64,000 nt of DNA from Candidatus Scalindua sp. SCAELEC01 (GTDB lineage Bacteria; Planctomycetota; Brocadiia; Brocadiales; Scalinduaceae), in NCBI GenBank assembly GCA_004282745.1, contig SHMT01000013.1, forward strand, positions 1 to 64,000. The letters run 5' to 3'. Below are positions 12,387 to 61,402 of this stretch, in pieces. Both the position numbers and the translations under genes were made by a program. Position 1 is the stretch's first letter; each line of letters opens with the position of its first letter. The notes beneath the pieces are model-generated. The model saw nothing but the letters and a program-made list of their open reading frames with translations. It had not been told where the DNA came from and searched no databases.

Positions 12387-12430
12387 GAATGAGTCCTGAT
12401 GAGATGATAGGAAATTGCTTTTTAGATATT

Positions 12431-12578
12431 TAGTGTTTGAACGAAAACTACCCATCTACGGCGTTGCTGCAACAATGACGTAATCCTCACGTACTTGAGT
12501 ACGCTCCGGTTACGTAATTATTTCGCGCCTTGTACCTGGGCAGTTTTGGTTCAAACACTGGGTTTCGTTCAAGCACTA
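12431..12578. repeat. inverted-repeat element, family D (full copy)
   Basis: The 148-bp element has terminal repeats TAGTGTTTGAACGAAA and, at the right, TTTCGTTCAAGCACTA. A second inner pair is made by GAACGAAAACT and AGTTTTGGTTC. Other copies are at 61254-61402 and 52890-53030, with a fragment at 1040. No coding capacity. It sits 45 bp upstream of the GH130 start. Confidence 0.8.
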
Positions 12579-13004: not shown

Positions 13005-13476
13005 CAATTTGAAAGAGACATTTCAGAAAGAGTATTAAGGAAAAATAGGGCAGGGTATCGCTTCTTGCTTCTATTTTTTCTTTGTGCTATAGCGCCTACT
13101 GTTTTCCCCCCGGGATATACGAAAATTATTTTTTCTCTTTTAACACAAAATCTACATCTGATGTCTTTCCTGCTTCTACTCTTACCTCCTGGGTAAGCAT
13201 CTTAGAGGGCTGGCTGCATCAGTACAAAATTGGCAGGCGCAGGCAGGTAGCTAGAAAAACCATAAATATCCCTTTGCCGGATATATCAAAAACAGAAATT
13301 AATCCACTCTGAATGCAGGAGATTACAAAACGAATTTGACAAAATAGTTTGATCACAATTTGGGAATCGATCCGATCAGAATTTAGGAGGGAACGATTAG
13401 CTGCTGGACAGCGTGATAAATATATTCATTTGTTCTTTAAAGAAATTGTTGTTAACACTGTATTCTAATTCAATAC
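13005..13476. other. intergenic with a short dispersed repeat
   Basis: No gene supported. The stretch 13353-13425 (AATTTGGGAATCGATCCGAT and following) recurs diverged at 17085-17148, ending both times in GACAGCGTGAT. It marks the outer edge of the duplicated blocks. Confidence 0.4.
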
Positions 13477-13758
13477 CTAACCCAGGTCCTTCAATTCATC
13501 TTCAAAATACTTTGTTTGACAACTCCTGCAAAAATAGACGTGTCCTTCTTTTTTTGAAATAAAAACTATTGCAATGGTAATATTTATTACTAAGTTTACA
13601 AGAGGAACAAAGGCTCCATCTGTTACAAAAACCAATATTGGGAAAAGCAATACTCCATTTAAAATAAATGCAACTGCAATTTTCCTATTATCTTTTCTTT
13701 TTAACGGCTTACCACAGGTTGTACAGTGATAAATTATATTTCCTTCCATTATTTTCAT
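13477..13758 (-). CDS. two-helix protein with split zinc ribbon (copy 1)
   Basis: The protein has 93 residues from MKIMEGN, the start also used by the copy at 20712. A CTTCGKPLKRKDNRK zinc knuckle begins it, two transmembrane helices follow (residues 28-68), and CRSCQTKYFEDELKDLG ends it. The two CxxC pairs could bind one zinc across the membrane hairpin or at its base. Three copies exist (also 17437 and 20712), each downstream of Rhs-related sequence on the same strand. I infer a candidate immunity or accessory protein for an Rhs tip; no family was recognised. Confidence 0.6.
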   Translation of the reverse strand: MKIMEGNIIYHCTTCGKPLKRKDNRKIAVAFILNGVLLFPILVFVTDGAFVPLVNLVINITIAIVFISKKEGHVYFCRSCQTKYFEDELKDLG

Positions 13759-14060: not shown

Positions 14061-14328
14061 AAGGTTGTTTTATATCAACTTCAAGGCCAGCATTGAGAAA
14101 GAAAAATGTTAGTTCTCCTCCTATAACACTTGGGGTCTGAATACCTACTAGTCCTTGTTTGAAACCCAAAACGGTTTTATTATCTGTGATTGAATTAAGA
14201 ACAGGTAGATTCGAAGGGCGGAATGTAGAAGGAGGCTCGTTGGTGAACGTGCTGCGTACGATCGAATGCGGAGTTTTGACTCTTACAATCGCTGTGTTTG
14301 GGCTGACCTCAACTTTGCTTTCCTTCAT
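14029..14328 (-). CDS. unknown 99-residue protein (copy 1)
   Basis: It begins MKESKVEVSPNTAIVRVKTP and ends with a hydrophobic segment (SVIGGELTFFFLNAGLEVDI). The copy at 18379 is nearly identical, so the frame has been kept open since duplication. It overlaps the next membrane frame by about 30 bases. No family recognised. It could be part of an Rhs-associated module or the remains of a longer gene. Confidence 0.4.
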   Translation of the reverse strand: MKESKVEVSPNTAIVRVKTPHSIVRSTFTNEPPSTFRPSNLPVLNSITDNKTVLGFKQGLVGIQTPSVIGGELTFFFLNAGLEVDIKQPFEGLPQKRCE

Positions 14329-14406
14329 ATCAATTAATTTATTGCATTTTTAGAAAAACAAATCAAATCTCCTCATTTTCCTAAGATTTAACCAAATAAA
14401 TATTAC

Positions 14407-14544
14407 TATACTAAAATCGATTTGGTTTTAGATTTTTCTAACAACCAAAGCTTGGTGAAGGTATCCCCGGACAAAGGCGCCGAGGACTTTACTCGCTCCG
14501 TTTTCTCTCGGATTTTATCCGAAAACCATTATGAGATGAGTATA
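14407..14544. repeat. inverted-repeat element, family A
   Basis: It begins TATACTAAAATCGATTTGG and ends CCGAAAACCATTATGAGATG followed by AGTATA. The interior has GGTGAAGGTATCCCCGGACA and GCGCCGAGGACTTTACTCGC. The matching copy at 18757 in the duplicate segment shows insertion before duplication. Confidence 0.8.
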
Positions 14545-14724
14545 TATACCCATCACAAATTGGTTTTCGGTTTTCAGAACCCGATTTCGCATGAAATTTA
14601 GACTTTTCTCAATCTCAAAATCCTCGACTTAGTATTACTAAGCCTCTGGTTTTGTTCAATCGAAAAATCAAAATTTCAAGTAAACTCCGGCCCAGAAATT
14701 CCTAAAACCATTTTGCGATGGGTA
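14545..14724. repeat. inverted-repeat element, family C, with exact empty site
   Basis: The 180-bp element begins TATACCCATCACAAATTGG and ends ACCATTTTGCGATGGGTA. In the duplicate at 18895 the flanks GATGAGTATA and TACTAGCAAAAG are directly joined. Insertion at a TA is implied, as for IS630/Tc1-mariner type elements. Another full copy lies at 58922-59103. Confidence 0.85.
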
Positions 14725-14967
14725 TACTAGCAAAAGAAACAACCATAAGGCATGGAACAAAAATTTTGTTTCCATAAAAAATAGATGTATTTTTCATCGT
14801 ATAAAATATGAAAAGTCAGAAGTTCACAGTATAAATAGACCAGCCAACCATACATATTTTATTTGCATATTTTTTATGACGAGCAACTTTTTCTATAAAT
14901 TCTGTCTTTATTCATCTCATACCGTTTTTATAAAAGTATCATCCCCTTCATAATACACATGATATGT

Positions 14968-15459
14968 TTACAACCATTCATGGTATTTAGCAAAAAACCT
15001 TCCCAAGTAAGTCCAAGTAACTGGCTTCAATTCTTTTAAAAACCGTACCAATTCTTCATTGTTGACACCACTATAACGTACTTTCTTCCCATGAAATAAA
15101 AATATAACAGAAATACCTAGGGTTATCTTTTCTATATCTTCTATATTTACAGGTATAATTTTTTTTCTAATTAAAGGGAAAATCATAAAAAAAGTTACTT
15201 GTGATTTATTGAGATCAAAACATATTTTATATGCATACTGTCCTAATAGTAAATCTGCAACACACCACAAAGTAAACATCATAGGCAAAGCTATAAAAAT
15301 GCCATCAGGGTTTTTAATGTTACTAGTACCAATAACAGATTTTACTGCTATACAAATTATACACGTTATAATAAAACCAATTCTAGCTGCATATTTACAA
15401 AAATAAACACTGAAAGTAGGTATTGAAAAAACAGATTTGTTTCCATTTATTTCGGTCAT
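14968..15459 (-). CDS. membrane protein with PH-like domain (copy 1)
   Basis: The protein has 163 residues. Two helices (about residues 24-75) are followed by a strand-rich domain YKICFDLNKSQVTFFMIFPL, then KIIPVNIEDIEKITLG and KKVRYSGVNNEELVRFLKEL. The layout resembles bacterial proteins with two helices and a PH-like domain. A 148-residue paralog is at 19180, and a 27-codon fragment of a third directly upstream. The repetition beside Rhs sequence suggests an immunity protein. No signature residue fixes the function. Confidence 0.55.
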   Translation of the reverse strand: MTEINGNKSVFSIPTFSVYFCKYAARIGFIITCIICIAVKSVIGTSNIKNPDGIFIALPMMFTLWCVADLLLGQYAYKICFDLNKSQVTFFMIFPLIRKKIIPVNIEDIEKITLGISVIFLFHGKKVRYSGVNNEELVRFLKELKPVTWTYLGRFFAKYHEWL

Positions 15460-16197: not shown

Positions 16198-16929
16198 TCA
16201 AAATTTTTTTCCAATAGCACCACCAAGTTCACTAGGTGCCATACCTATTAAACCACCTAAACTGCGAATAGCACTAGAAGCACCAACACGTGATAGTCCG
16301 ATTGAGGTAATTTGTCCCATACCACCACCTATAGCAGAACCAACAGTAGAACCTACAATAGAACCTATATTTATACAGCTAAGACTTCTATCGTTAACAA
16401 TCATTTGTCCAACAAAATTAGAAGCTCCTCCCACTATTCCTGTGAGTGCCATTGTTGTTAATACGCCTGCCGAAAGATCAAGAAGGACAAGTCCAAAGCC
16501 ACCTGCGGCACCGAGTGCGCCACTTATAGCAACATCATAGAAATTTCCTTCTTGTGCAAGGGCACCTGAAACCCCAGACAATGCTCCTATTCCTGCACCT
16601 ATAATTGCTCCAATTAATTCTTTACCCTCTGGATCAATCAAATTAACTGGATCGTTGATCACATACCCATATAGATTTACATCACCACCAGCAAAGTCTA
16701 TAGGGTCTTTGGCTGTCCATCTGCCAATCGTTGGGTCATAGTCTCTGGCACCATACCGAATAAGGTCGGTGTCTCTGACATGCAGTCCTCCTGCAAATCC
16801 AAATGGTATGGTAATCCCGGGGTTTGTGTCATCAATTATGTTGCCGAAGGAGTCGTAGTCAATCCTTTTCGTGATATTTCCACTGGAATCGACTATCAGC
16901 CTGAGTGAGCCTACCTGATCGTACAACAA
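16198..16929 (-). pseudogene. displaced Rhs C-terminal module (orphan tip)
   Basis: The frame has 243 codons. Residues 1-102 match the Rhs core of the main protein almost exactly, including GARDYDPTIGRWTAKDPIDF and NLIDPEG. After DPEG the sequence becomes a 140-residue tip of Gly- and Ala-rich hydrophobic stretches, unlike the tip of the main protein. Homology stops at 16925, and only a TTG with no ribosome site is available there, so it is probably silent. Such modules can replace the active tip by recombination in the shared core. Confidence 0.8.
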
Positions 16930-17149: not shown

Positions 17150-17259
17150 TATACTAAAACCAATTGGTTTTCGGCTTTATCGGAAACCAAATCTTGGTAA
17201 AGGTATGCTCGCTCATTTTATATCGGATTTTATCCGAAAACCATTATGAGATGAGTATA
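17150..17259. repeat. inverted-repeat element, family A (short form)
   Basis: The 110-bp copy runs from TATACTAAAACCAATTGGTT to TTATGAGATGAGTATA. It lacks the CCCCGGACA...GCCGAGG segment of longer copies, so it shows an internal-deletion form. It lies in the 16930-17436 gap, where no gene was seen. Confidence 0.75.
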
Positions 17260-17436
17260 TGACCTTGTTGATTTATTCCGTTTTCGTTAAACCACCAATT
17301 TTTCAGTCCAATAATAACGATGACTTACAACAACAGTTTTTCAAGAATTGGCTAAAATCGGATTAAATCAACAGAACCATATATTCGGGTGTTATTTGTA
17401 AAAAAATTTTATTATCTCTACATACTGATTCCATGC

Positions 17437-17784
17437 CTAACCCAGATTCTTCAATTCATCTTCAGAATATCTTGTTTGACAGCTCTTGCAAAAATAGGTG
17501 TATCTTTCCTTCTTTAAAACAAAAAACAACGCAATAATAATATTGATTATTAAATACATAAAAGGGACAATAGTTCCATACGCAATAAACAGCAGTATAG
17601 GGAAAAGTAAAATTCCACATAAAATTAAAGCAGCCGCGGTTTTTCTATAATCCTTTCTTTTAAACGGCTTACCACAAGCGGTACAGTTCCAAACTATATT
17701 TCTCCCATTATTTTTATCTATACTCTCTTTTATTTTTATGGGAGGTTGTAGATAAGGATCGATTCTTTTCAACCCCTTTCCCAA
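17437..17784 (-). CDS. two-helix protein with split zinc ribbon (copy 2)
   Basis: This 115-residue version has a 32-residue N-terminal extension (MGKGLKRIDPYLQPPIKIKE) absent from copies 1 and 3. CTACGKPFKRKDYRK, two helices and CKSCQTRYSEDELKNLG then follow. It is the most diverged of the three. The extension may be native or may come from the tail of another gene. The role is inferred, as for copy 1. Confidence 0.6.
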   Translation of the reverse strand: MGKGLKRIDPYLQPPIKIKESIDKNNGRNIVWNCTACGKPFKRKDYRKTAAALILCGILLFPILLFIAYGTIVPFMYLIINIIIALFFVLKKERYTYFCKSCQTRYSEDELKNLG

Positions 17785-18678: not shown

Positions 18679-18756
18679 ATCAATTAATTTATTGCATTTT
18701 TAGAAAAACAAACCAATTCTCCTCATTTCCCTAAGATTTAACCAAATAAATACTAC

Positions 18757-18895
18757 TATACCAAAAACGATTTGGTTTTAGATTTTTCTAACAACCAAAG
18801 CTTGGTGAAGGTATCCCCGGACAAAAGGCGCCGAGGACTTTACTCGCTCCGTTTTCTCTCGGATTTTATCCGAAAACCATTATGAGATGAGTATA
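18757..18895. repeat. inverted-repeat element, family A
   Basis: Copy corresponding to 14407-14544, within the second block of the duplication. Immediately right of it is the empty target site of the family C element found in block 1. Confidence 0.8.
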
Positions 18896-19179
18896 TACTA
18901 GCAAAAGAAACAACCATAAGGCATGGAACAAAAATTTTGTTTCCATAAAAAATAGATGTATTTTTCATCGTATAAAATATGAAAAGTCAGAAGTTCACAG
19001 TATAAATAGACCAGCCAACCATACATATTTTATTTGCATATTTTTTATGACGAGCAACTTTTTCTATAAATTCTGTCTTTATTCATCTCATACCGTTTTA
19101 TAAAAATATCGTCCCTTCATGATATATATAATATGTTTACTACCACGAATAATCTTTTTTTTAAAGATCCCAAAAGCAT

Positions 19180-19626
19180 CTATGTGACAAGCTTTAGTTC
19201 TTTCAAAAACAGAATTAATTCATTGTTATAACTTCCGTTATAATGAACTTTTGTGCCATCAACAAAAAATGTAATAGGAACTTTTGTTATTACTTTTTCT
19301 ATTTCACCTATATTTACAGTTATAATTTTCTCTTTAATTAAAGGACAAATCATAAAAAAAGTCACTTGTGATTTATCTAAATCCAAACAAATTTTATATG
19401 CAAACCTTCTAAACAGTAAGTCTGACACACACACAAATACAATCATAATAGGCAAGATTAAAAAAATTTCATTCGAATATTTTGTGCCGCTAGTTCCTAT
19501 GCCTAATTTCACTGCTATACAAATTACGCACATAATTATAAAGCAAACTCTTGTTGCATATTTACAAAAATAAACACCGAAAAGAGGCATAGTGAATAAT
19601 CGGTTATGTATATTCACGCTATTCAT
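19180..19626 (-). CDS. membrane protein with PH-like domain (copy 2)
   Basis: The protein has 148 residues from MNSVNIHNRLFTMPLFGVYF, which aligns with the start of the 163-residue paralog. The longer open frame (to 19767) enters a family B element, so that start was rejected. Two helices and YKICLDLDKSQVTFFMICPL match copy 1, but the region has diverged far more than the neighbouring genes. This suggests relaxed or diversifying selection. It lacks the last 13-15 residues of copy 1. Confidence 0.55.
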   Translation of the reverse strand: MNSVNIHNRLFTMPLFGVYFCKYATRVCFIIMCVICIAVKLGIGTSGTKYSNEIFLILPIMIVFVCVSDLLFRRFAYKICLDLDKSQVTFFMICPLIKEKIITVNIGEIEKVITKVPITFFVDGTKVHYNGSYNNELILFLKELKLVT

Positions 19627-20303: not shown

Positions 20304-20659
20304 TTAGAATCAGAATCATACTGTTTTTATACAGCGCTAATTTGGCAAGATGTTTTGAAGCATCATCTATTGTTTTTTTATTCAAAAAAAGGTGACAAAG
20401 TATTTTGAAGAATCTAAAGTAAAGCTTGTGTTTCTACCGTCGTATTCACCAAATTTGAATTTAATAAAAAGGCTTTGGAAATATTTCTGTAAAATAGTTC
20501 TTTATAATAAATACTATGAAACGTTTGACGAATTCAAAAAAGCATGTAAATCTTTTTTGGACGGCATAAAAAATACAAGGAAAGAGATATCATCTTTATT
20601 GACAGAGAACTTTCAAATAATTGGTACAAATACCTAAAACCATTTCGTAATGAGTATAT
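20260..20659 (+). pseudogene. IS630-type transposase remnant with right end
   Basis: The open part at 20392-20637 reads TKYFEESKVKLVFLPSYSPN followed by LNLIKRLWKYF. This is the C-terminal DDE block of IS630 transposases (usual form LPxYSPxLNPIExxW). The catalytic Glu position reads Lys (LIKRLW), and the front of the gene is lost. Past the stop, CCTAAAACCATTTCGTAATG then AGTATA is the element end. It matches the ends of family C and A elements, linking them to this IS family. Confidence 0.8.
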
Positions 20660-20711
20660 TCGGGTGTTCTTTGAAGAAATTTCTTATTAACACTGTATTC
20701 TAATTCAATAC

Positions 20712-20993
20712 CTAACCCAGGTCCTTCAATTCATCTTCAAAATACTTTGTTTGACAACTCCTGCAAAAAAAGACGTATCTTTCTTTCTTTGAAATAAAAA
20801 CTATTGCAATTGTAATATTTATTACTAAGTTTACAAGAGGAACAAAGGCTCCATTTGTTACAAAAACCAATATTGGGAAAAGCAATACTCCATTTAAAAT
20901 AAATGCAACTGCAATTTTCCTATTATCTTTTCTTTTCAACTGACTTCCACACGTTGCACATTTGTAAACTATATTTCCTTCCATTATTTTCAT
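20712..20993 (-). CDS. two-helix protein with split zinc ribbon (copy 3)
   Basis: The protein has 93 residues with CATCGSQLKRKDNRK, two helices and CRSCQTKYFEDELKDLG. It is almost identical to copy 1 in the middle and diverged in the first knuckle. It lies 246 bases downstream of the main Rhs gene on the same strand, so it is the best placed candidate partner of that protein's tip. The 246-base gap holds nothing recognisable. Confidence 0.6.
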   Translation of the reverse strand: MKIMEGNIVYKCATCGSQLKRKDNRKIAVAFILNGVLLFPILVFVTNGAFVPLVNLVINITIAIVFISKKERYVFFCRSCQTKYFEDELKDLG

Positions 20994-21239: not shown

Positions 21240-24200
21240 CTATATTCCTTGTCCAGGTAGTCCCTGTAGCTCTTCTTGTTTATCTCTTGATGGACAATGT
21301 ACATAATCCATAATGTCGCCAGCTAAATCTTCAATGGGTTGTCCAAAACCTACAACTTCTAATGCAATTTGAGTCAGCATACCACCAGCTGAACCAATTA
21401 CAAAACCCGCAAAGGCTCCTGGAGGCCCCAACACGATAAAGCCACCAATCCCACTTGTAACACCAGCACCTATCCCTGCACCAAAAACTCTTCTCACACC
21501 AGGAGATACATTAGTCTTATTATTAATAAGCTTTTCAGATAGAGATTTTGCTGTTTGACCAATAACATTGTCCACAACCAGCCCTTCTGGATCAATCAAA
21601 TTAACCGGATTGTTGATCACATACCCATATAGATTTACATCACCACCAACAAAGTCTATGGGGTCTTTTGCTGTCCATCTGCTAATCGTTGGATCATAGT
21701 CTCTGGCACCAAACCGAACAAGGTCGGTGTCTCTGTCATGTAGGCCTCCTGCAAATCCAAATGGTATGGTAAACCCGGGGGTTGTGTCATTAATTATGTT
21801 GCCGAAGGAGTCGTAGTCAATCCTTTTCGTGATATTTCCACTGGAATCGACTATCAGCCTGAGTGAGCCTACCTGATCGTAGATCATATAATATGGAGTA
21901 CCTCCACGCAACATTGAAATTGGCAACCTTCCATCTGCATAGTCAAAGCGTTCGATCAGATTGTCTGAACCATCATAAACCGCAAGCAGGGTCGTGTTAT
22001 CAGCCCAGAGATACTTCTCTATTATGATCCCATCAATCCTCTTGGCAATCCTCCTGCCCATCGGATCGTGGTCATAGGTAATACTTCGGCCGTTTGCCAG
22101 ATCAACGCTGAGGAGTCCTCCCCTTATGGAATAATGATATGAAGTAGCCCCTGTCACTGATGCCTTTTCAGTCAGGAAACCATCTTCATCAAACACATAT
22201 ACTTCGTTTCCCGCCGCAATGATATGGTCTTCATTGGTATAGTCGAATGCTTTGTCCGTTATGCCTCTTGCGGTATTTGTCTCTCGGGTACGATTACTAT
22301 TTGCGTCATACCCATAGCTTTCAACAACGCTGTTGTTCTCTTTTACCTCAATTAACCTGCCTAGGGCATCATATCCGTAATCCCACGTAATTGTCTCCGC
22401 CCCTATTACTTCTCGCTTTTGTATTATCCTTCCGGCATTGTCTCTTGTTACACTTATGTCGTAGACATTGTTCCCATTTACTTCGTGGGAGTATCTGTCA
22501 ATCTCTCCATATCCGTTAAAGCTTCTGGTCCGTGTTAATACCCCATCGCTCACTGACTCTGGCAGGCCGTTATCTGTGTTTCTTGTAATGGTATAGTTGC
22601 CCGCTGAGGTGAGAAGTCCATCATCGTCATAGCCCAGGATATCAGTAAGGCCTGCATATGTTATGGAGGAGAGTCTTAAATCGTTGTCGTATGTGTAGCT
22701 TATTGTTTTGGTCAGAATTCCGGAACGTGAGTCTGCTTGCAAGAGTGAGCCGTCATAGGTATACGTTATCTTTTCGGTCCCGTTGATTACGCCGGATAGA
22801 AGACTTGCACATCCATAGGTAAAGTCAATTGTGCCTTCAGGTGTTATTGTTTCTGTTAGCAAACCATCGGTATAGGTATTCAGTATTTGGCTGCCTGAAG
22901 GGTATGTAAGGGTCTTCAGTTTTCTCTCTTTGTCAAATACGTAGAGGTAACGGCCCGATATCGGAGGAGCATACTCTTTACGCTGGTCATTGCCGGTATA
23001 ACCAAAGGTGTGACTGATCTCTTTCGGCGTTACAAGGAGTGTCATATTACCGTTTGCATCATAGCCGTAACTTATTGCCGTGCCGTCAGGACGCTCTTCC
23101 TGTATAGGTCGTCCCATGATATCAAATTCATAGTCTAAGGTCTTATTGTCAGGTGTGATAACGAAATCCAGATGGCCATTTCCATCATAGGTCCTTGTGG
23201 TTGTTCGATCTCCAATAGTTGTGCCTATCAGCCTTCCTCTGGTGTCATAACTGAACGTTGTGGGGAAAAGCCCCGGGACTGTTATCTCTTCGGTGAGAAG
23301 GTTCGTGGTGTTATATTTAATTGTTGTTTCTCTTCCAAGGGGAGACCGATTTGTGATCATCGCCGTTAGGGTGTTATTAGTTGATATCCACTCGTTTCCA
23401 TTAACGGTTACCGTATCCGTAATTTTATCAACTACGTCGTCTGCGTCGGTGTCGTCATAGGTTCTGTTCTTTGTGGTTGTCTGTACAAGACTACCAGGTA
23501 TCGTCCTTGTCGATTCCTTGGGATATTTGTATCTGTATTCAGGATCGAGGTCGTATCTTATATCAAGTATCATACCGCAGGAGAGCTCCCTCGTTTCGCT
23601 TAGTCCATCTGATGAACGGAAGATTGAGGATAGGGCCCCGGTAGGATCTCTCTTTACCGAAGTGTAGGCACCTGTCGATTCTGTGCGATCCTCATAGGTA
23701 GTAAGATTGTCTTCGCCTGTCAGTATGTTTGTCACTATGTTCCCGTTACTATCTACAGCACGGGAATAGGTCCATTGTCCACCTTCAGGGTCGAGTATAT
23801 CGGTCACCTTGCCACCTTCGTCGTAGTAATGTTCAAAGTGATTGCCGTTGAGATCGTATTCATCTAACATAAGCCCATCTGGTGTATAGGTAAAGGAGTA
23901 GGTCGAGTCATCAGGATAGGTGACATCTGTTAAATGGTTATTCACATCTACACGGAGAGTTGTTGTAATACCATCTGGTGAGGTTATTGATATGGGTACT
24001 CCGGTGGAATCCCTCTGTAAGGTAATCCGATTATCAAACGGATCAGTTATTGCTGCAAGTTTACTATCCTGATCGTAACTAAAGGTAAGAAGCGTATTGC
24101 CAGTTGACAGGTCCATGGTGGAAATATGAAGACCCGTGCTGTTTATTATATAACCCAGGCCATTTTCATCCATAAAGGTTCTTTCGCCAGACGTAATAGC

Positions 24201-27200
24201 GCCAGCAAAAATACCTGGAAGTGATATCTTTCTAATTCGATGATTATTTTTATCCGGTATATAAATATTCCCTGCGCTATCAATTACTACAGCGCCTGGA
24301 GCACCAAGACTTGCCTCAGTAGCCGGTCCTCCATCTCCACTGTAACCCCGTTTTCCAATACCAGCTATTGTCGTAATAATGCCATTCGTATTTACTTTCC
24401 TTATTCGCTCATTAACGACCTGCGATATATATATATTACCAGATACATCCACAGTCACTGCTACTGGGCGTGTCAACTTTGCATCAATTGCAGGTCCACC
24501 ATCTCCATCGTCACCCAATTCTCCGTTACCTGCCACCGTGGTGATAATGCCGGTTATGTCTACCTTTCTAATTCGATGATTGTACAAATCTGCTATATAG
24601 ATATTTCCAACAGTATCCACTGCTACTCCACGCGGAAGGTTAAGACTTGCCTCAGTAGCCGGCCCTCCATCTCCACTGTAGCCGCTTTGGCCACTACCTG
24701 CTATTGTCGTTATTATACCATTTATATCTACCTTTCTAATTCGATGATTGTACGGCTCTGCTATATAGATATTTCCAACAGTATCCACTGCTACATCGCT
24801 TGTATGACCAAGACTTGCCTCGGTAGCAGGACCTCCATCTCCACTGTAACCGCTTTGGCCATTACCCGCTATTGTTGTAATGATACCAGTTATATCTATC
24901 TTCTTTATTGAATAATGAACGGTATAATTATTTGCAAAATATATATTGCCTTCAAGATCCAAGGTCACACCTCTTGGATTCGCAATGTTTGCTTGAATAG
25001 CAGGACCTCCATCTCCACCGTTACCCAATTGTCCATTACCCGCTATCGTCGTAATAATACCATTTGTATCTACCTTTCTAATTCGATGATTGAACATATC
25101 TGCGATATAAATATTTCCAACAGTATCCATTGCTACTCCACTTGGATTATCAAGACTCGCCTCAGTAGCAGGGCCACCATCTCCACCATAATCTCCACGA
25201 AAATTAGCACTTCCTTGTCCATTACCCGCTATCGTAGTCATGATGTGTACACTATTTTTACTCGTCGTCCCATCTCCTTTGTAGAGAGTATTAGGCTCAT
25301 AAGGGACCAGGGAATGGTGGGCAGACAACGTCCAACCCTCGGCAATTGTACCAATTCCCCCTTCTCGATAGATTTTGACCCTATTCCTCTTCCATGAGGT
25401 AACCTCCTGCCTAGCACGGACACCCGTTATCATCCCGTTACCATTATATCCAAACCGATTGGTTCGTTGGTATTCTCCATCATAGACAAACCCTATACTT
25501 ACCTCAGCCTCAATCGAGCCTGATAACCAATTTCCCAGGTAATCGCGACCATCCCAGGCAAACTCAACCTTTTGGCCTGGTAGCGGATCAACTGTCTGTT
25601 CAAATTCCCTACCTGCCACTCTCATTCTGACAGTGATACCCTTAAGACTTGTCGGTACACTCTCACCACTGACGGGGATACTTACGACTGACTTGTATCC
25701 CATTACACGGTTACTCGCGTAATGAAGTGAAAGATCCGTACCAGGAATGGGGATGTCTTCATGAAAGATCCGACTCTTTCGTTCTATATATGAGTTTGTA
25801 CAATCTCTATCATCACTTGCTGTCTTCTGTTGATCAACAGAAGGTTCACCTCCAGGAGTTGGTTGTACCGCATCAGCAGGGGGGCCAAACGGCCAGTTAC
25901 AATCCCAGGGTGAAAAGTGCACCGTTTCAAAGCGCCAGTAGGTATTATTTGGGATATATTGTGTTGGATCGTTAAGGCCGAGAACCTCGTCACGGAAAGA
26001 ACCATTACTATTCAGGTCGTCAGGCAGGCTGTCTCCTGTGCTGTCAAGGGCATCTATCGTGCCATCGTTGTCGGTATCAAGGAGCATTACAACTACTCCG
26101 TTCTCTGATGGTACCCACACTGCACGCTTACGATCATAGTATCCTACCGGAACTACCTCCCCGACTTGAAATCCAAGGAAGTTATCTATATAGACAGAGA
26201 CAGGTTTTTCAAATCTTACACTGCTTATCCCGTCTACGGAGAGTTCGGCACAGTACGTAAAGGCTGAATTTGGAGGGAGTCTCGCAGGCATAGACTCCGG
26301 GGTATCAAACTCGGTGGCACGGGTCGTAATAGACGTAAGCGCTACCTCATTACCACTTTCGTCTATGGTAAATGCACGGTTATCTCCTCTGAATACCATT
26401 GTCGCTGAACGACTGCCATGTCCGTCCGTTACGGGTGAACTCTTGTGTGTAACCGCTGTTGAAGGGTTTCCATCAAAGGTTACGGTAGTAGATAAGGTAT
26501 CTTCAGCAATCATGGTGATCGTGTCTGTAATGGCTATATCATTCCAGGGGACAGAGACCTTTCGGTGAGCGGTGATAAATCCGGATTTTTCATATTTAAT
26601 GGTCATTGTTCCACCACCCTCTACCGGTATAGAAAACCTCCCCTCATTGTTTGTCTTGACCGATCCATATTCCGGATGACCATGGATGGATACTATAATT
26701 TCGGAAATAGGATTTTGTGATCTATCTTTCACGTTACCCGTTATGAGAGAAAAGCGCTTCGGGTCATACGATTCGATAGTGGCATCATAAGGGATTAACT
26801 TTTCATATCGTTTCCCAAATGAACCTTCAGGCGGAAGTTCTGTTTTTGTTGTCTTGATTACCGCAAGGTTAATAGCGTCAGATTGACCACCGCCAGGTCT
26901 AGGATTTGTTATGTTTATGGGGTACTCACCGGGTGTCTCTATCATTTCTGCTGGAATAGATACTTCTAATTGTGTGCTGGATACGTAAGTTGGGTGAAAT
27001 CGCAGTTTGTTAAAGGAGACAGTGGATCTTTTCATGAAATTATTGCCCGTTAATGTGAGGACATATTCAGGGCTTCCGGCTTCTATAGTTGTAGGGCTTA
27101 TCGATAAAAGGGAAGGTTGGGGGTTCGGGTTTTTTGGTTTTCTACATCTAAAATGCCATCGGTGCATGAAATGTGAAACCAAGAACCTTTTTTCCAATCC

Positions 27201-27533
27201 ATGCCAAAAGAGTTGTCTATGGGAAAATTGTTTCGGATGTTGGCGTTTCCATTGCTGTCGCCTTTCAGAAAATAGAGAAACAAATTTGTTATTATTTTGA
27301 CTCATCGTACGGTCGGTGAATTCTGTCTTTTGATACGGTGTGTGGGAGTAAGTTCGGTTTAGACGATTGGTTGAATCGACATGATTGGGCGTGTTATCAG
27401 TGGAGTCTTGTCTTGACTCAAGATCTCTATCATTTGCCCATATCTTTTTTGTATCTGAATAGATACCAAGAACAATAATAATTGTGATGGCCCATAACTC
27501 ATACCTGAGTATCTGCATCCACTTCCCGCTCAT
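21240..27533 (-). CDS. giant exported Rhs/YD-repeat protein with TIG and NHL domains
   Basis: The protein has 2097 residues. An N-terminal hydrophobic segment (residues 8-25) suggests export or anchoring. Next come an IPT/TIG-like domain (about 140-225, SISPTTIEAGSP), a carboxypeptidase-regulatory-like domain (about 258-330), and a region with DTDNDGTIDALD and CNWPFGPP. Six NHL-type repeats follow (about 768-1110, units like ITTIAGNGQSGYSGDGGPAT). YD repeats then run to about 1870, and the Rhs core ends NLIDPEG near 1984. The last 113 residues are a distinct tip rich in Gly and hydrophobics. Polymorphic toxins show this plan; no catalytic motif is seen in the tip. Downstream duplicates fit tip/immunity turnover. 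Confidence 0.85.
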   Translation of the reverse strand: MSGKWMQILRYELWAITIIIVLGIYSDTKKIWANDRDLESRQDSTDNTPNHVDSTNRLNRTYSHTPYQKTEFTDRTMSQNNNKFVSLFSERRQQWKRQHPKQFSHRQLFWHGLEKRFLVSHFMHRWHFRCRKPKNPNPQPSLLSISPTTIEAGSPEYVLTLTGNNFMKRSTVSFNKLRFHPTYVSSTQLEVSIPAEMIETPGEYPINITNPRPGGGQSDAINLAVIKTTKTELPPEGSFGKRYEKLIPYDATIESYDPKRFSLITGNVKDRSQNPISEIIVSIHGHPEYGSVKTNNEGRFSIPVEGGGTMTIKYEKSGFITAHRKVSVPWNDIAITDTITMIAEDTLSTTVTFDGNPSTAVTHKSSPVTDGHGSRSATMVFRGDNRAFTIDESGNEVALTSITTRATEFDTPESMPARLPPNSAFTYCAELSVDGISSVRFEKPVSVYIDNFLGFQVGEVVPVGYYDRKRAVWVPSENGVVVMLLDTDNDGTIDALDSTGDSLPDDLNSNGSFRDEVLGLNDPTQYIPNNTYWRFETVHFSPWDCNWPFGPPADAVQPTPGGEPSVDQQKTASDDRDCTNSYIERKSRIFHEDIPIPGTDLSLHYASNRVMGYKSVVSIPVSGESVPTSLKGITVRMRVAGREFEQTVDPLPGQKVEFAWDGRDYLGNWLSGSIEAEVSIGFVYDGEYQRTNRFGYNGNGMITGVRARQEVTSWKRNRVKIYREGGIGTIAEGWTLSAHHSLVPYEPNTLYKGDGTTSKNSVHIMTTIAGNGQGSANFRGDYGGDGGPATEASLDNPSGVAMDTVGNIYIADMFNHRIRKVDTNGIITTIAGNGQLGNGGDGGPAIQANIANPRGVTLDLEGNIYFANNYTVHYSIKKIDITGIITTIAGNGQSGYSGDGGPATEASLGHTSDVAVDTVGNIYIAEPYNHRIRKVDINGIITTIAGSGQSGYSGDGGPATEASLNLPRGVAVDTVGNIYIADLYNHRIRKVDITGIITTVAGNGELGDDGDGGPAIDAKLTRPVAVTVDVSGNIYISQVVNERIRKVNTNGIITTIAGIGKRGYSGDGGPATEASLGAPGAVVIDSAGNIYIPDKNNHRIRKISLPGIFAGAITSGERTFMDENGLGYIINSTGLHISTMDLSTGNTLLTFSYDQDSKLAAITDPFDNRITLQRDSTGVPISITSPDGITTTLRVDVNNHLTDVTYPDDSTYSFTYTPDGLMLDEYDLNGNHFEHYYDEGGKVTDILDPEGGQWTYSRAVDSNGNIVTNILTGEDNLTTYEDRTESTGAYTSVKRDPTGALSSIFRSSDGLSETRELSCGMILDIRYDLDPEYRYKYPKESTRTIPGSLVQTTTKNRTYDDTDADDVVDKITDTVTVNGNEWISTNNTLTAMITNRSPLGRETTIKYNTTNLLTEEITVPGLFPTTFSYDTRGRLIGTTIGDRTTTRTYDGNGHLDFVITPDNKTLDYEFDIMGRPIQEERPDGTAISYGYDANGNMTLLVTPKEISHTFGYTGNDQRKEYAPPISGRYLYVFDKERKLKTLTYPSGSQILNTYTDGLLTETITPEGTIDFTYGCASLLSGVINGTEKITYTYDGSLLQADSRSGILTKTISYTYDNDLRLSSITYAGLTDILGYDDDGLLTSAGNYTITRNTDNGLPESVSDGVLTRTRSFNGYGEIDRYSHEVNGNNVYDISVTRDNAGRIIQKREVIGAETITWDYGYDALGRLIEVKENNSVVESYGYDANSNRTRETNTARGITDKAFDYTNEDHIIAAGNEVYVFDEDGFLTEKASVTGATSYHYSIRGGLLSVDLANGRSITYDHDPMGRRIAKRIDGIIIEKYLWADNTTLLAVYDGSDNLIERFDYADGRLPISMLRGGTPYYMIYDQVGSLRLIVDSSGNITKRIDYDSFGNIINDTTPGFTIPFGFAGGLHDRDTDLVRFGARDYDPTISRWTAKDPIDFVGGDVNLYGYVINNPVNLIDPEGLVVDNVIGQTAKSLSEKLINNKTNVSPGVRRVFGAGIGAGVTSGIGGFIVLGPPGAFAGFVIGSAGGMLTQIALEVVGFGQPIEDLAGDIMDYVHCPSRDKQEELQGLPGQGI
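24230..25240 (-). repeat. tandem NHL-coding repeats
   Basis: About six units of roughly 160-170 bp inside the Rhs gene. Each encodes an NHL blade with the GNIYIAD.NHRIRKV and ITTIAGNGQ.G.GDGGPATEASL pattern. High unit similarity at DNA level suggests recent expansion or gene conversion and could allow copy-number change. The six blades would make one propeller. Confidence 0.8.
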
Positions 27534-27580: not shown

Positions 27581-27719
27581 TATACTAAAACCGATTTGGC
27601 TTACAGTTTTTAATGGAAACCAAATCTTGGTGAAGGTATCCCCGGACAAAGGCGCCGAGGACTTTACTCGCTCAATTTTATTTCGAATTTTATCCGAAAA
27701 CCATTATTAGATGAGTATG
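27581..27719. repeat. inverted-repeat element, family A
   Basis: From TATACTAAAACCGATTTGG to CCATTATTAGATGAGTATG, 48 bases upstream of the Rhs start codon. It could therefore carry or disturb the promoter of that gene. Confidence 0.8.
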
Positions 27720-28047
27720 TTTCATCAGAGTGTTTTGTTTTACGCCTTAAGGCAAGCGCAAAACAATTGCCAATATTGAAGAGAAAGAGATGCAAGGAAC
27801 AGCAATAGAGTTTGTTTGTCTGCAGTAATGGAATTGGTTTAGCTTATGAATAATCAGCTATTTTGGGATGCAGGACCGATGAGGTAATGATAGATAAATG
27901 CGATAACTTCTTATGTAATGGAAGTTGCGAATATAGATGAACCGCCGAATCTTCATAAACAAAGAGAAGGATGTCTGTAATTGCTTTCTCTCTTAAATCT
28001 TTACTAAATTGGTATGGGGACAGAAAATTTTTGTTTTTTACCGGGTG

Positions 28048-32964: not shown

Positions 32965-33103
32965 TATACTAAAACCGATTTGGTTTTCGGCTTTACCGGA
33001 AACCAAATCTTGGTTGCCTGCCCGACATGTCATTCAGACGGGCAGTTATGCTCGCTCAATGTTATCTCGGATTTTATCCGAAAACCATTATGAGATGAGT
33101 ATA
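32965..33103. repeat. inverted-repeat element, family A, with nested palindrome
   Basis: From TATACTAAAACCGATTTGG to TTATGAGATGAGTATAT. At 33015-33045 it contains TGCCTGCCCGACATGTCATT then CAGACGGGCAG. This replaces the short AAAGG seen in the copy at 17150. It sits between the two pseudopilin genes. Confidence 0.8.
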
Positions 33104-33132
33104 TGGTAGTTTTTTATGCTAACTGTGTGAAA

Positions 33133-42540: not shown

Positions 42541-42710
42541 TATACTCATCTCATAATAGTTTTCGGATAAAATCAGAGATAACATTGAGCGAGTAAAGTC
42601 CTCGGCGCTTTTGTCCGGGGATACCTTCACCAGGATTTGGTTTCCAGCCCGCCCGGCCTGTCAGCCGTGTTCGGACGGGTAAAGTCGAAAACCAAATCGG
42701 TTTTAGTATA
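42541..42710. repeat. inverted-repeat element, family A (inverse), with nested palindrome
   Basis: From TATACTCATCTCATAATAG to AACCAAATCGGTTTTAGTAT. The GC-rich palindrome GCCCGCCCGGCCTGTCAGCC then GTGTTCGGACGGGT is inserted at 42647-42680, close to the end rather than the middle. It lies 66 bases upstream of the radical SAM gene. Confidence 0.8.
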
Positions 42711-52003: not shown

Positions 52004-52897
52004 ATGTATAACATTAGTGATTCAGATTTACAGAAAATTATAGATTTATCAGTCAATGTAGGAGCCATTTATCTGCAATGGACCCTCCATAGTGAGGAGT
52101 TAACCACCAAAGAGGTTCGAGAAAAGTTTGTCTGTGGTGAAGAGCTATTAAAAATCCTGGATAGTTTTGATCCCAAAGGAGAAAAAAAGCTTGAGCGCAA
52201 ACGGTTGGCAGTCTTGGCGCATGGGTATCTCCGGGAACATATTTCAGAAAACCACGCGAATTTATATAGAATAGGATTTTCGGTAGTACAACAGACGGTT
52301 GGGCTGGTAGCCCTGCAGTCATTGGAAGAGGTTGAAGATTTAGGAAAGGCCATAAATGAGAGGTTACCAGAACATATGGAAAATCTTAAGGGTCGGATTG
52401 ATGGCCTCCTTCCACCCAATACGATATTGTCGGTGATCGGACGTATTACACAGAAAATAGAAGACGAGGGAGTTGATTTAGATATAGGAGATCTTTTAGC
52501 GGAGGTTTTCAATGAAGTCGTTTCCACAGGGGGAGCAAGAGAAGTTACGGTCACGATAGGAGAGGAATCCAAGACGTTTCAAACTTTTGCGGAAATGGTA
52601 GGGGCTCTTTTGAATTTTGGAGTAGAAAAATTTACCAAAAGATGCAAGTCTCTCAATGACTTCAGTGATAAAGAGGCCTTCAGAGAGGTAATCGAGGATT
52701 GTACCAATGGGTTTCTCAGCAAAAACGGAGACACCTTGAATCTGCACAAAAACGATTTTATCAGCGAGTTAAATCCAGGAGGCAAGGGTGACGTCCCATC
52801 TCCAGCTCCTACCATTGAAGAGCTTCTTTTCGGGGCAATTGGTGGGATGGCAGAGGGATTTTGGTTAAGCCATACAAAACAGCAAGATGGTGGTTGA
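52004..52897 (+). CDS. hypothetical helical protein, C-terminus set by a MITE
   Basis: The protein has 297 residues and a good AGAGAGAGGGG site before ATG. It is mostly alpha helical and acidic, with no signal peptide, no cysteine cluster and no recognised motif. A Pro-rich GDVPSPAPTIEELLF linker precedes a last helix with FGAIGGMAEGFW. The stop codon TGA and the final residues DGG lie in the left end of a family D element, so the native C-terminus may have been cut. Function is unknown. Confidence 0.65.
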   Translation: MYNISDSDLQKIIDLSVNVGAIYLQWTLHSEELTTKEVREKFVCGEELLKILDSFDPKGEKKLERKRLAVLAHGYLREHISENHANLYRIGFSVVQQTVGLVALQSLEEVEDLGKAINERLPEHMENLKGRIDGLLPPNTILSVIGRITQKIEDEGVDLDIGDLLAEVFNEVVSTGGAREVTVTIGEESKTFQTFAEMVGALLNFGVEKFTKRCKSLNDFSDKEAFREVIEDCTNGFLSKNGDTLNLHKNDFISELNPGGKGDVPSPAPTIEELLFGAIGGMAEGFWLSHTKQQDGG

Positions 52898-53030
52898 ACG
52901 AAGACCTCCCATCTCCAGCGTTGCTGTAGTAATTCTGTAATTATCAACGACGTGAGTACGTTCCGATTGCAACATCAGCGCGCCTTATATCTGGAAGTTT
53001 TGGTTCAACCATAGGGTTTCCGCTAGATGG
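52890..53030. repeat. inverted-repeat element, family D (diverged)
   Basis: GTGGTTGAACGAAGACCTCC at the left and TTGGTTCAACCATAGGGTTT then CCGCTAGATGG at the right match the 12431 copy, with AGCGTTGCTGTAGTAATTC in the body. It supplies the stop codon of the preceding gene. Confidence 0.7.
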
Positions 53031-54445: not shown

Positions 54446-54557
54446 TATACTAAAACCGATTTGGTTTTAGGTTTTTTAAAAAACCAAAGCTTGGTGAAGG
54501 TATACTCGCTCAATTTTGTCTCGGATATTATCCGAAAACCATTATGAGATGAGGATA
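54446..54557. repeat. inverted-repeat element, family A (short form)
   Basis: From TATACTAAAACCGATTTGG to CCATTATGAGATGAGGATA, 112 bp, the same internal-deletion form as 17150-17259. Confidence 0.75.
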
Positions 54558-55245
54558 TTTCAGAATAAAGTACTAGCCCTTGACTTTAATAGAGTATTTT
54601 ATTATTGTTCATAGAGCTCAGCCCATAGCTAATCTTCAGTGCTCAATCACGGATAAACCGTAATGCATACTTGTAACCGACATCCGTTCATCTAAGAGTA
54701 GATAAAAGGTTACTACTTATTTAGGATGGGAATAAAGGGTCGTCTTGCATTATTACATTTCCAAAGCGATAGATCAGTTTCGAAAGGGGGGCAGAAGATT
54801 TGAGGTTATTAATCAATTGCTCTTATGATCATGTTGATTATTAGAGTACAATAAAAAACATTCTGAACTTCGCATATTTGAATGCGAGAATATTCCATGT
54901 ATACGTGGCAGAGTTTCACTTAATAAAAAATACAAAAGTATCATAGTAGATGTGTGAACTTACTGTTTCAAAAGCATAATTATTTATGATATATAGAGTT
55001 TGAGTATTATTTTTTATAGTTGATAAGATTGTTGCATTAATGGGTAAAGAACGTTGGGATGTTTTTATGGAATTAGATGACTGTTTTGAGGCTTTAGCAT
55101 CATCGGGTAGTAAAAGGCTGGAACCAAGTAAAAACATTTCAACATGGCCTCTAAGGAAAGCATGAAATCAGGGATTTAGGTTAAATAAATGGGTACAATT
55201 GTCCTGAAATATGTACCCCACAAGAGCTTTTGGGAGGTGATTTGA
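54558..55245. other. intergenic, no gene recognised
   Basis: AT-rich. A 73-codon reverse frame at 54916-55137 has no ribosome site or recognisable motif. Its right end holds the GGGAGGTG ribosome site of the next small gene. Confidence 0.45.
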
Positions 55246-58921: not shown

Positions 58922-59103
58922 TATACTCATCGCGAATTGATTTTTGGAATTTCTGGGCATGAGTTTGCCTGAAATTTTGATTTTTCGATTGAACAAAACC
59001 AGAGCCTTGGTGCTATCAAGGCGAGGATATTGTGATTGAGAAAGATCTAAAGGTCTGGTGAAATCGGGTTCTGAAAACCGAAAACCAATTTGCGATGAGT
59101 ATA
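58922..59103. repeat. inverted-repeat element, family C (inverse, full)
   Basis: The 182-bp copy has ends TATACTCATCGCGAATTGA and CCAATTTGCGATGAGTATA. The body CGATTGAACAAAACCAGAGC is shared with the 14545 copy in reverse order. Confidence 0.8.
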
Positions 59104-61225: not shown

Positions 61226-61253
61226 GATAAGAGTGTGCTTTATTTTTGATATG

Positions 61254-61402
61254 TAGTGTTTGAACGAAAACTACCCATCTACTACGTTGCTGCAACAATT
61301 TCGAAATCCTCAAGTACAATTGTACGTTCCGGTTATGAAATTGTTACGCGCCTTGTACCTGGGCACTTTTCATTCAAACACAGGGTTTTCGTTCAGACAC
61401 TA
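61254..61402. repeat. inverted-repeat element, family D
   Basis: From TAGTGTTTGAACGAAAACTA to GTTTTCGTTCAGACACTA, 149 bp. The body differs from 12431 mainly in the central ATTTCGAAATCCTCAAGTAC arm, but the two central arms still pair, so structure is conserved above sequence. Confidence 0.8.

Follow-up and report, generated by a model that had tools for sequence, protein, structure and literature searches.

Organisation of the locus

The DNA analysed here (the window) is a 64,000 bp stretch of contig SHMT01000013.1 from Candidatus Scalindua sp. SCAELEC01, a marine anammox bacterium of an uncultured lineage. Part of it is duplicated. Copies of one duplicated gene occupy 13436-13735, 17396-17695 and 20671-20970. 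A displaced RHS/YD-repeat C-terminal fragment (16198-16929) lies beside a full RHS-like gene coding for 2097 aa (21240-27533), and duplicated small downstream genes of unknown family are located between the two. The window also carries repeats of families A, C and D and a remnant of an IS630 insertion sequence (Table 1).

Table 1. Mobile-element features of the window
Feature	Coordinates	Strand	Basis or remark
Family C MITE, 178 bp, TACCCATCACAAATTGG...CCATTTTGCGATGGGTA	14547..14724	+	Sequence read, family alignment, fold z-scores
Left TA copy of the target duplication	14545..14546	.	Placement inside the TATATATA run ambiguous
Right TA copy of the target duplication	14725..14726	.	
Empty target site of block 2, TATATA	18892..18897	.	
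Remnant of the putative parent IS630: transposase C-terminus and right end	20383..20658	+	PF13358, NF033545, shared terminus
Second, diverged family C copy (85%), palindrome more perfect	58924..59103	-	TA on both sides (58922-59103 inclusive)
Family A MITE-like element, TATACTAAAA...GATGAGTATA, with family C at its terminal TA	14407..14546	+	
Block 2 counterpart of the family A element, ending in the empty TATATA	18757..18897	+	
Family D repeat, empty at the TA used by family C in six other D copies	12420..12565	+	
Family D repeat, same TA empty	61243..61388	+	
Diverged family D repeat, same TA empty	52893..53009	+	

Block 1, read directly over 14301-15000, has GATGAG-TATATATA-CCCATC...GATGGG-TATA-CTAGC, with the CCC start at 14549 and the GGG end at 14722, while block 2, read in the same way over 18681-19180, has GATGAG-TATATA-CTAGC. 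The difference in length is exactly 180 bp and corresponds to a 178-bp element (TACCC...GGGTA) plus one TA. With these 180 bp removed, 14461-14935 aligns to block 2 with no substitutions and two single-base indels. Direct reading and alignment thus bear out the 180-bp insert in block 1 and the joined flanks in block 2 that an earlier, sequence-only reading had reported. Its element, 14545-14724, is more precisely one TA copy followed by the 178-bp element, the second TA copy coming directly after. It also regarded the ends as exact, which holds once the family alignment is used to fix them; at this single site they are unreadable within the TATATA run. The filled site of block 1 set against the empty site of block 2 displays the target duplication expected of a MITE.

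The substitution-free tract around the site spans about 290-300 bp (14461-14935 versus 18812-19110), and beyond it the divergence between the two blocks is about 4% on the left side and about 20% on the right side. This is likely to be a gene-conversion tract between the blocks. The flank of the site occurs twice in the whole genome, both times in these blocks, and was absent from the same-genus relative G001 when sought there, so that no outgroup polarises the site.

Family C: copies, ends and structure

The genome contains at least 43 near-full-length family C copies and two fragments with 84-100% identity, a lower bound since 40 of 289 first-look candidates were scored. Because of these copies and the second copy in the window, the block 1 insert cannot be put down to chance. 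In the alignment, 40 of 46 left boundaries and 42 of 46 right boundaries carry a TA. The TA targeting proposed earlier, for which one site would be no proof, therefore holds family-wide: the genome search yielded copies with TA at most ends, and the ends lacking it form a small minority that appears to be mutated.

The terminal inverted repeats of family C are TATACCCATCACAAATTGGTTTT and TATACCCATCGCAAAATGGTTTT; taken as a pattern, they match 261 times (a count that includes related families) versus once for the reversed control. The element is short, leaves no room for a transposase and exists in many copies, as is typical of MITEs. It is nearly palindromic over its entire length, and its fold is far above shuffles (z -9.1 as RNA, -6.6 as DNA). 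The interior (columns 62-134, about 14605-14677) varies less (0.041) than the regions on either side of it (0.106), which is unexpected if transposition needs the ends only.

The strong whole-length hairpin and the conserved interior could also be accounted for if family C were a functional RNA or a regulatory hairpin under selection, with its spread being secondary. We consider this improbable. RNAalifold found almost no covariation (0.3 kcal/mol, double changes in 5 of 41 pairs), no Rfam match was obtained at the gathering threshold in the whole window, and most copies are located between genes at no fixed distance from them, while the TA flanks and the presence/absence pattern fit transposition. 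The fold, the near absence of covariation and the conserved interior are together what is expected of a young palindromic MITE and do not make a good case for RNA function.

In related genomes, matches to family C number three in G005 and eight in G006, the full-length ones being 85-88% identical. The same-genus G001 has a single 51-bp match, yet families A and D are common there; family C has either expanded in the lineage of the window or been lost in G001. A 30-mer from the family C core had no match in a genome contig collection, which may omit the genome of the window itself and those very near to it.

A second case of presence and absence is provided by copy C28:131264. The same two neighbour genes are found in G001, G015 and G012 without family C between them, in intergenic DNA too diverged for a base-exact junction. 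This copy was also considered as one splitting a gene, which was rejected as the relatives have two separate genes there. In silico removal of family C restored no convincing long gene at any copy examined. A search for orthologous sites of the 20-kb block region in G001 was dominated by family A matches.

IS630 as the putative driver

The ORF at 20392-20637 encodes the C-terminal 81 residues of a transposase of the IS630 family (PF13358; NF033545, the latter match being partial and below the whole-protein cut-off). The right end of this remnant, CCTAAAACCATTTCGTAATGAGTA-TA, is located at 20633-20658, and CCTAAAACCATTTCGTAATGAGTATA, lying directly 3' of the transposase ORF, is the family C right end. 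The IS630 and family C right ends agree in 26 of 31 bp (score 37 versus a shuffle maximum of 21), and 126 bp of the IS630 right end used as a query retrieved many family C right ends genome-wide at 87-90%. Sharing of terminal repeats with an IS630 of the same genome is therefore clear at the right end, the window remnant included. At the left end it is limited to a weak short core (7-9 of 12 positions), and an unanchored alignment of family C left ends with IS left ends did not score above shuffles. The left-end agreement is thus the weakest link of the comparison, the two family C ends apparently fitting IS630 unequally.

The remnant is located exactly at the junction of the third copy of the duplicated gene. 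The TATTCGGGTG flank that follows its right-end TA is also found at about 17382 without the IS; therefore, the duplicated blocks are bordered by ends of mobile elements.

No intact IS630 transposase gene was found in the draft assembly (G000, 104 contigs). However, many of its contigs stop in this element. Six of them (C101, C102, C103, C85, C26 and C57) stop inside an identical IS630 right end, four beginning and two ending in the IS, 125-127 bp in. Another ten (C91, C33, C27, C45, C35, C78, C52, C4, C96 and C81) stop inside left ends of two subtypes told apart by TATACCGGTC and TATACTAATC. All 16 contig ends reach 124-138 bp into IS630, and a TA adjoins the IS630 terminus in 16 out of 16. 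We infer that the shared overlaps of about 127 bp are the trace of a short-read assembler collapsing a repeat. Very probably, at least ten near-identical IS630 copies are present in the genome, and the draft lacks their bodies. The lack of an intact gene in the draft therefore does not mean its absence from the organism. With at least 16 contig ends, the draft conceals an abundant IS630, and "no transposase present" would be the wrong conclusion to draw from it.

G014 harbours three damaged IS630 copies bounded by ends of this type, one of them measuring 1134 bp end to end. Together with the window remnant they constitute the IS630 subgroup to which the family C-like ends belong. The IS630 genes of G001 and G006 (344-357 aa) belong to a different one and were rejected as drivers, having no family C-like terminal repeats nearby; a transposase fragment on contig C94 of the draft was rejected likewise, as it is without family C-like ends.

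Landing sites

Besides those in Table 1, family A MITE-like elements are located at 17150-17260, 27581-27720, 32965-33104, 54446-54558 and, on the minus strand, 42541-42710. They are about 140 bp long (TATACTAAAACCG...GATGAGTATA) and very abundant in the same-genus genome too. Their right end resembles that of IS630, and their left end starts like the second IS subtype (TATACTAA).

In 5 of 48 copies, the block 1 copy included, family C sits precisely at the TA that terminates a family A element; given how densely A ends occur in the window, about 0.33 such cases would be expected (rough Poisson P 2e-5). IS630 itself adjoins family A ends with its left end on contig C27 and with its right end on contig C26. 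In family D, one particular TA is occupied by family C in six copies and empty in at least nine, of which three belong to the window. Occupied and empty D copies show small differences at the left junction. Since the six family C copies in D look related, they may represent one copied composite and not six insertions.

What is least ordinary about family C is its repeated docking at the TA that terminates elements of another MITE family. One might speculate that the transposase has a preference for the TA at the ends of resident MITEs, with repeated docking at A ends by family C and by two or more ends of the parent IS, and by family C also at the fixed TA of D, but we regard such a preference as rather doubtful. 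If real, it would give rise to composite mobile units and spare genes from new insertions.

Order of events

ISY100, a member of the IS630-Tc1-mariner group, inserts almost only at TA and duplicates it, as shown in vitro; cleavage occurs two bases inside the 5' ends, and the religated donor junction, TATATA, is four bases longer than the original TA (PMC2170065). Excision of this type from block 1 would give TATATATATA, whereas block 2 has TATATA, which is the pre-insertion length. Block 2 looks like the pre-insertion state because removal of the 178 bp and one TA restores it without the extra bases left by IS630 excision.

The opposite direction, in which family C was formerly present in block 2 and disappeared through transposase excision or a precise deletion, seems about as improbable as an RNA function. 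Excision does belong to IS630 cut-and-paste, TA repeats can vary in length via slippage, and the site is the one for which an outgroup is lacking. But loss by excision predicts TATATATATA and not TATATA in block 2, and copy C28:131264 is absent at the orthologous place in all three relatives. Precise deletion with a scar, which the sequence-only reading had named as evidence against itself, was compared with the IS630 footprint rule, and block 2 shows no such scar. It is likewise improbable that gene conversion replaced the block 2 sequence with that of an empty donor, or that block 1 gained family C by conversion from elsewhere: the substitution-free tract of about 300 bp amid surroundings diverged by 4-20% does resemble a past exchange between the blocks, but an exchange across the site would have transferred the presence or absence of family C too, and, with the flank confined to these two sites, there is no other donor.

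Since the blocks appear to have exchanged sequence and family C is present in one only, its insertion must be later than the exchange. The sequence-only reading held that the site proves mobility after the duplication. Insertion later than the duplication is supported, but "proves" is too strong for a site that no outgroup polarises; the direction of change is judged from the family evidence, from the near identity of the sequence around the site and from the lack of an excision scar.

Proposed mechanism

We consider family C to be an IS630-dependent MITE moved in trans by the multi-copy IS630 of the same Scalinduaceae genome, with a probability of roughly 0.9. The filled and empty sites, the TA flanks, the copy number, the shared right end and the multi-copy IS630 ends are direct observations. 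Judging from the shared termini, this IS630 transposase probably acts on family C, and the transposase is presumably active today. The IS630-family (Tc1/mariner-like) transposase, supplied by many near-identical genomic copies, would bind the shared ends through the core TATACYCATYRCRAA, excise family C and insert it at a TA, duplicating the latter. At the locus studied, the block duplication would have come first and the insertion second, with family C entering the TA run at the right end of the family A element in block 1.

Family C is new as a family and ordinary as a kind, the kind of element being well known. What it offers is a testable MITE and IS pair in an anammox lineage, for which relatives, parent ends and both filled and empty sites are available.

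Comparison with known systems

No paper on MITEs or insertion sequences of anammox or Scalindua genomes came up in a literature search, though reports elsewhere are possible. As a precedent, RUP of Streptococcus pneumoniae comes closest. It is 107 bp long, has TA termini, numbers about 110 copies and often lies within other mobile elements; the likeness of its terminal repeats to those of IS630-Spn1 led to the proposal that this IS moves it (PMC2229807, PMC3049150). Pneumococcal repeats are also found inserted into one another (PMC10969869). Like RUP, family C is non-coding, shorter than 200 bp, bounded by TA, provided with IS630-like terminal repeats in the same genome, capable of forming a strong hairpin and frequently found in or near other mobile elements. 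RUP, however, combines 107 bp with a 9-bp terminal repeat, while family C is 178 bp long, palindromic over its whole length and resides in an unrelated host; RUP serves here as a precedent for the mechanism.

The putative driver is comparable to ISY100 and the IS630-Tc1-mariner group in its TA target and TA duplication (PMC2170065), and the IS630 transposases of the relatives have about 350 aa, the reading frame in G015 being open over 350 aa. Unlike ISY100, family C is without a transposase, and the Scalindua IS630, which in G014 measures only about 1.13 kb, differs between its two ends.

The Correia/NEMIS elements of Neisseria, which produce hairpin transcripts and exceed 100 copies, resemble family C in being short, with terminal inverted repeats, TA termini and both filled and empty sites (PMC2229807, PMC10969869). 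Their known promoters and their IHF and RNase III sites set them apart, and the likeness is one of description only. The cyanobacterial Nezha MITE, proposed to be moved by ISNpu3-like elements, was assigned to its IS by shared ends (PMC3049150), as family C is here; host and sequence are different, and this likeness too is limited to the description.
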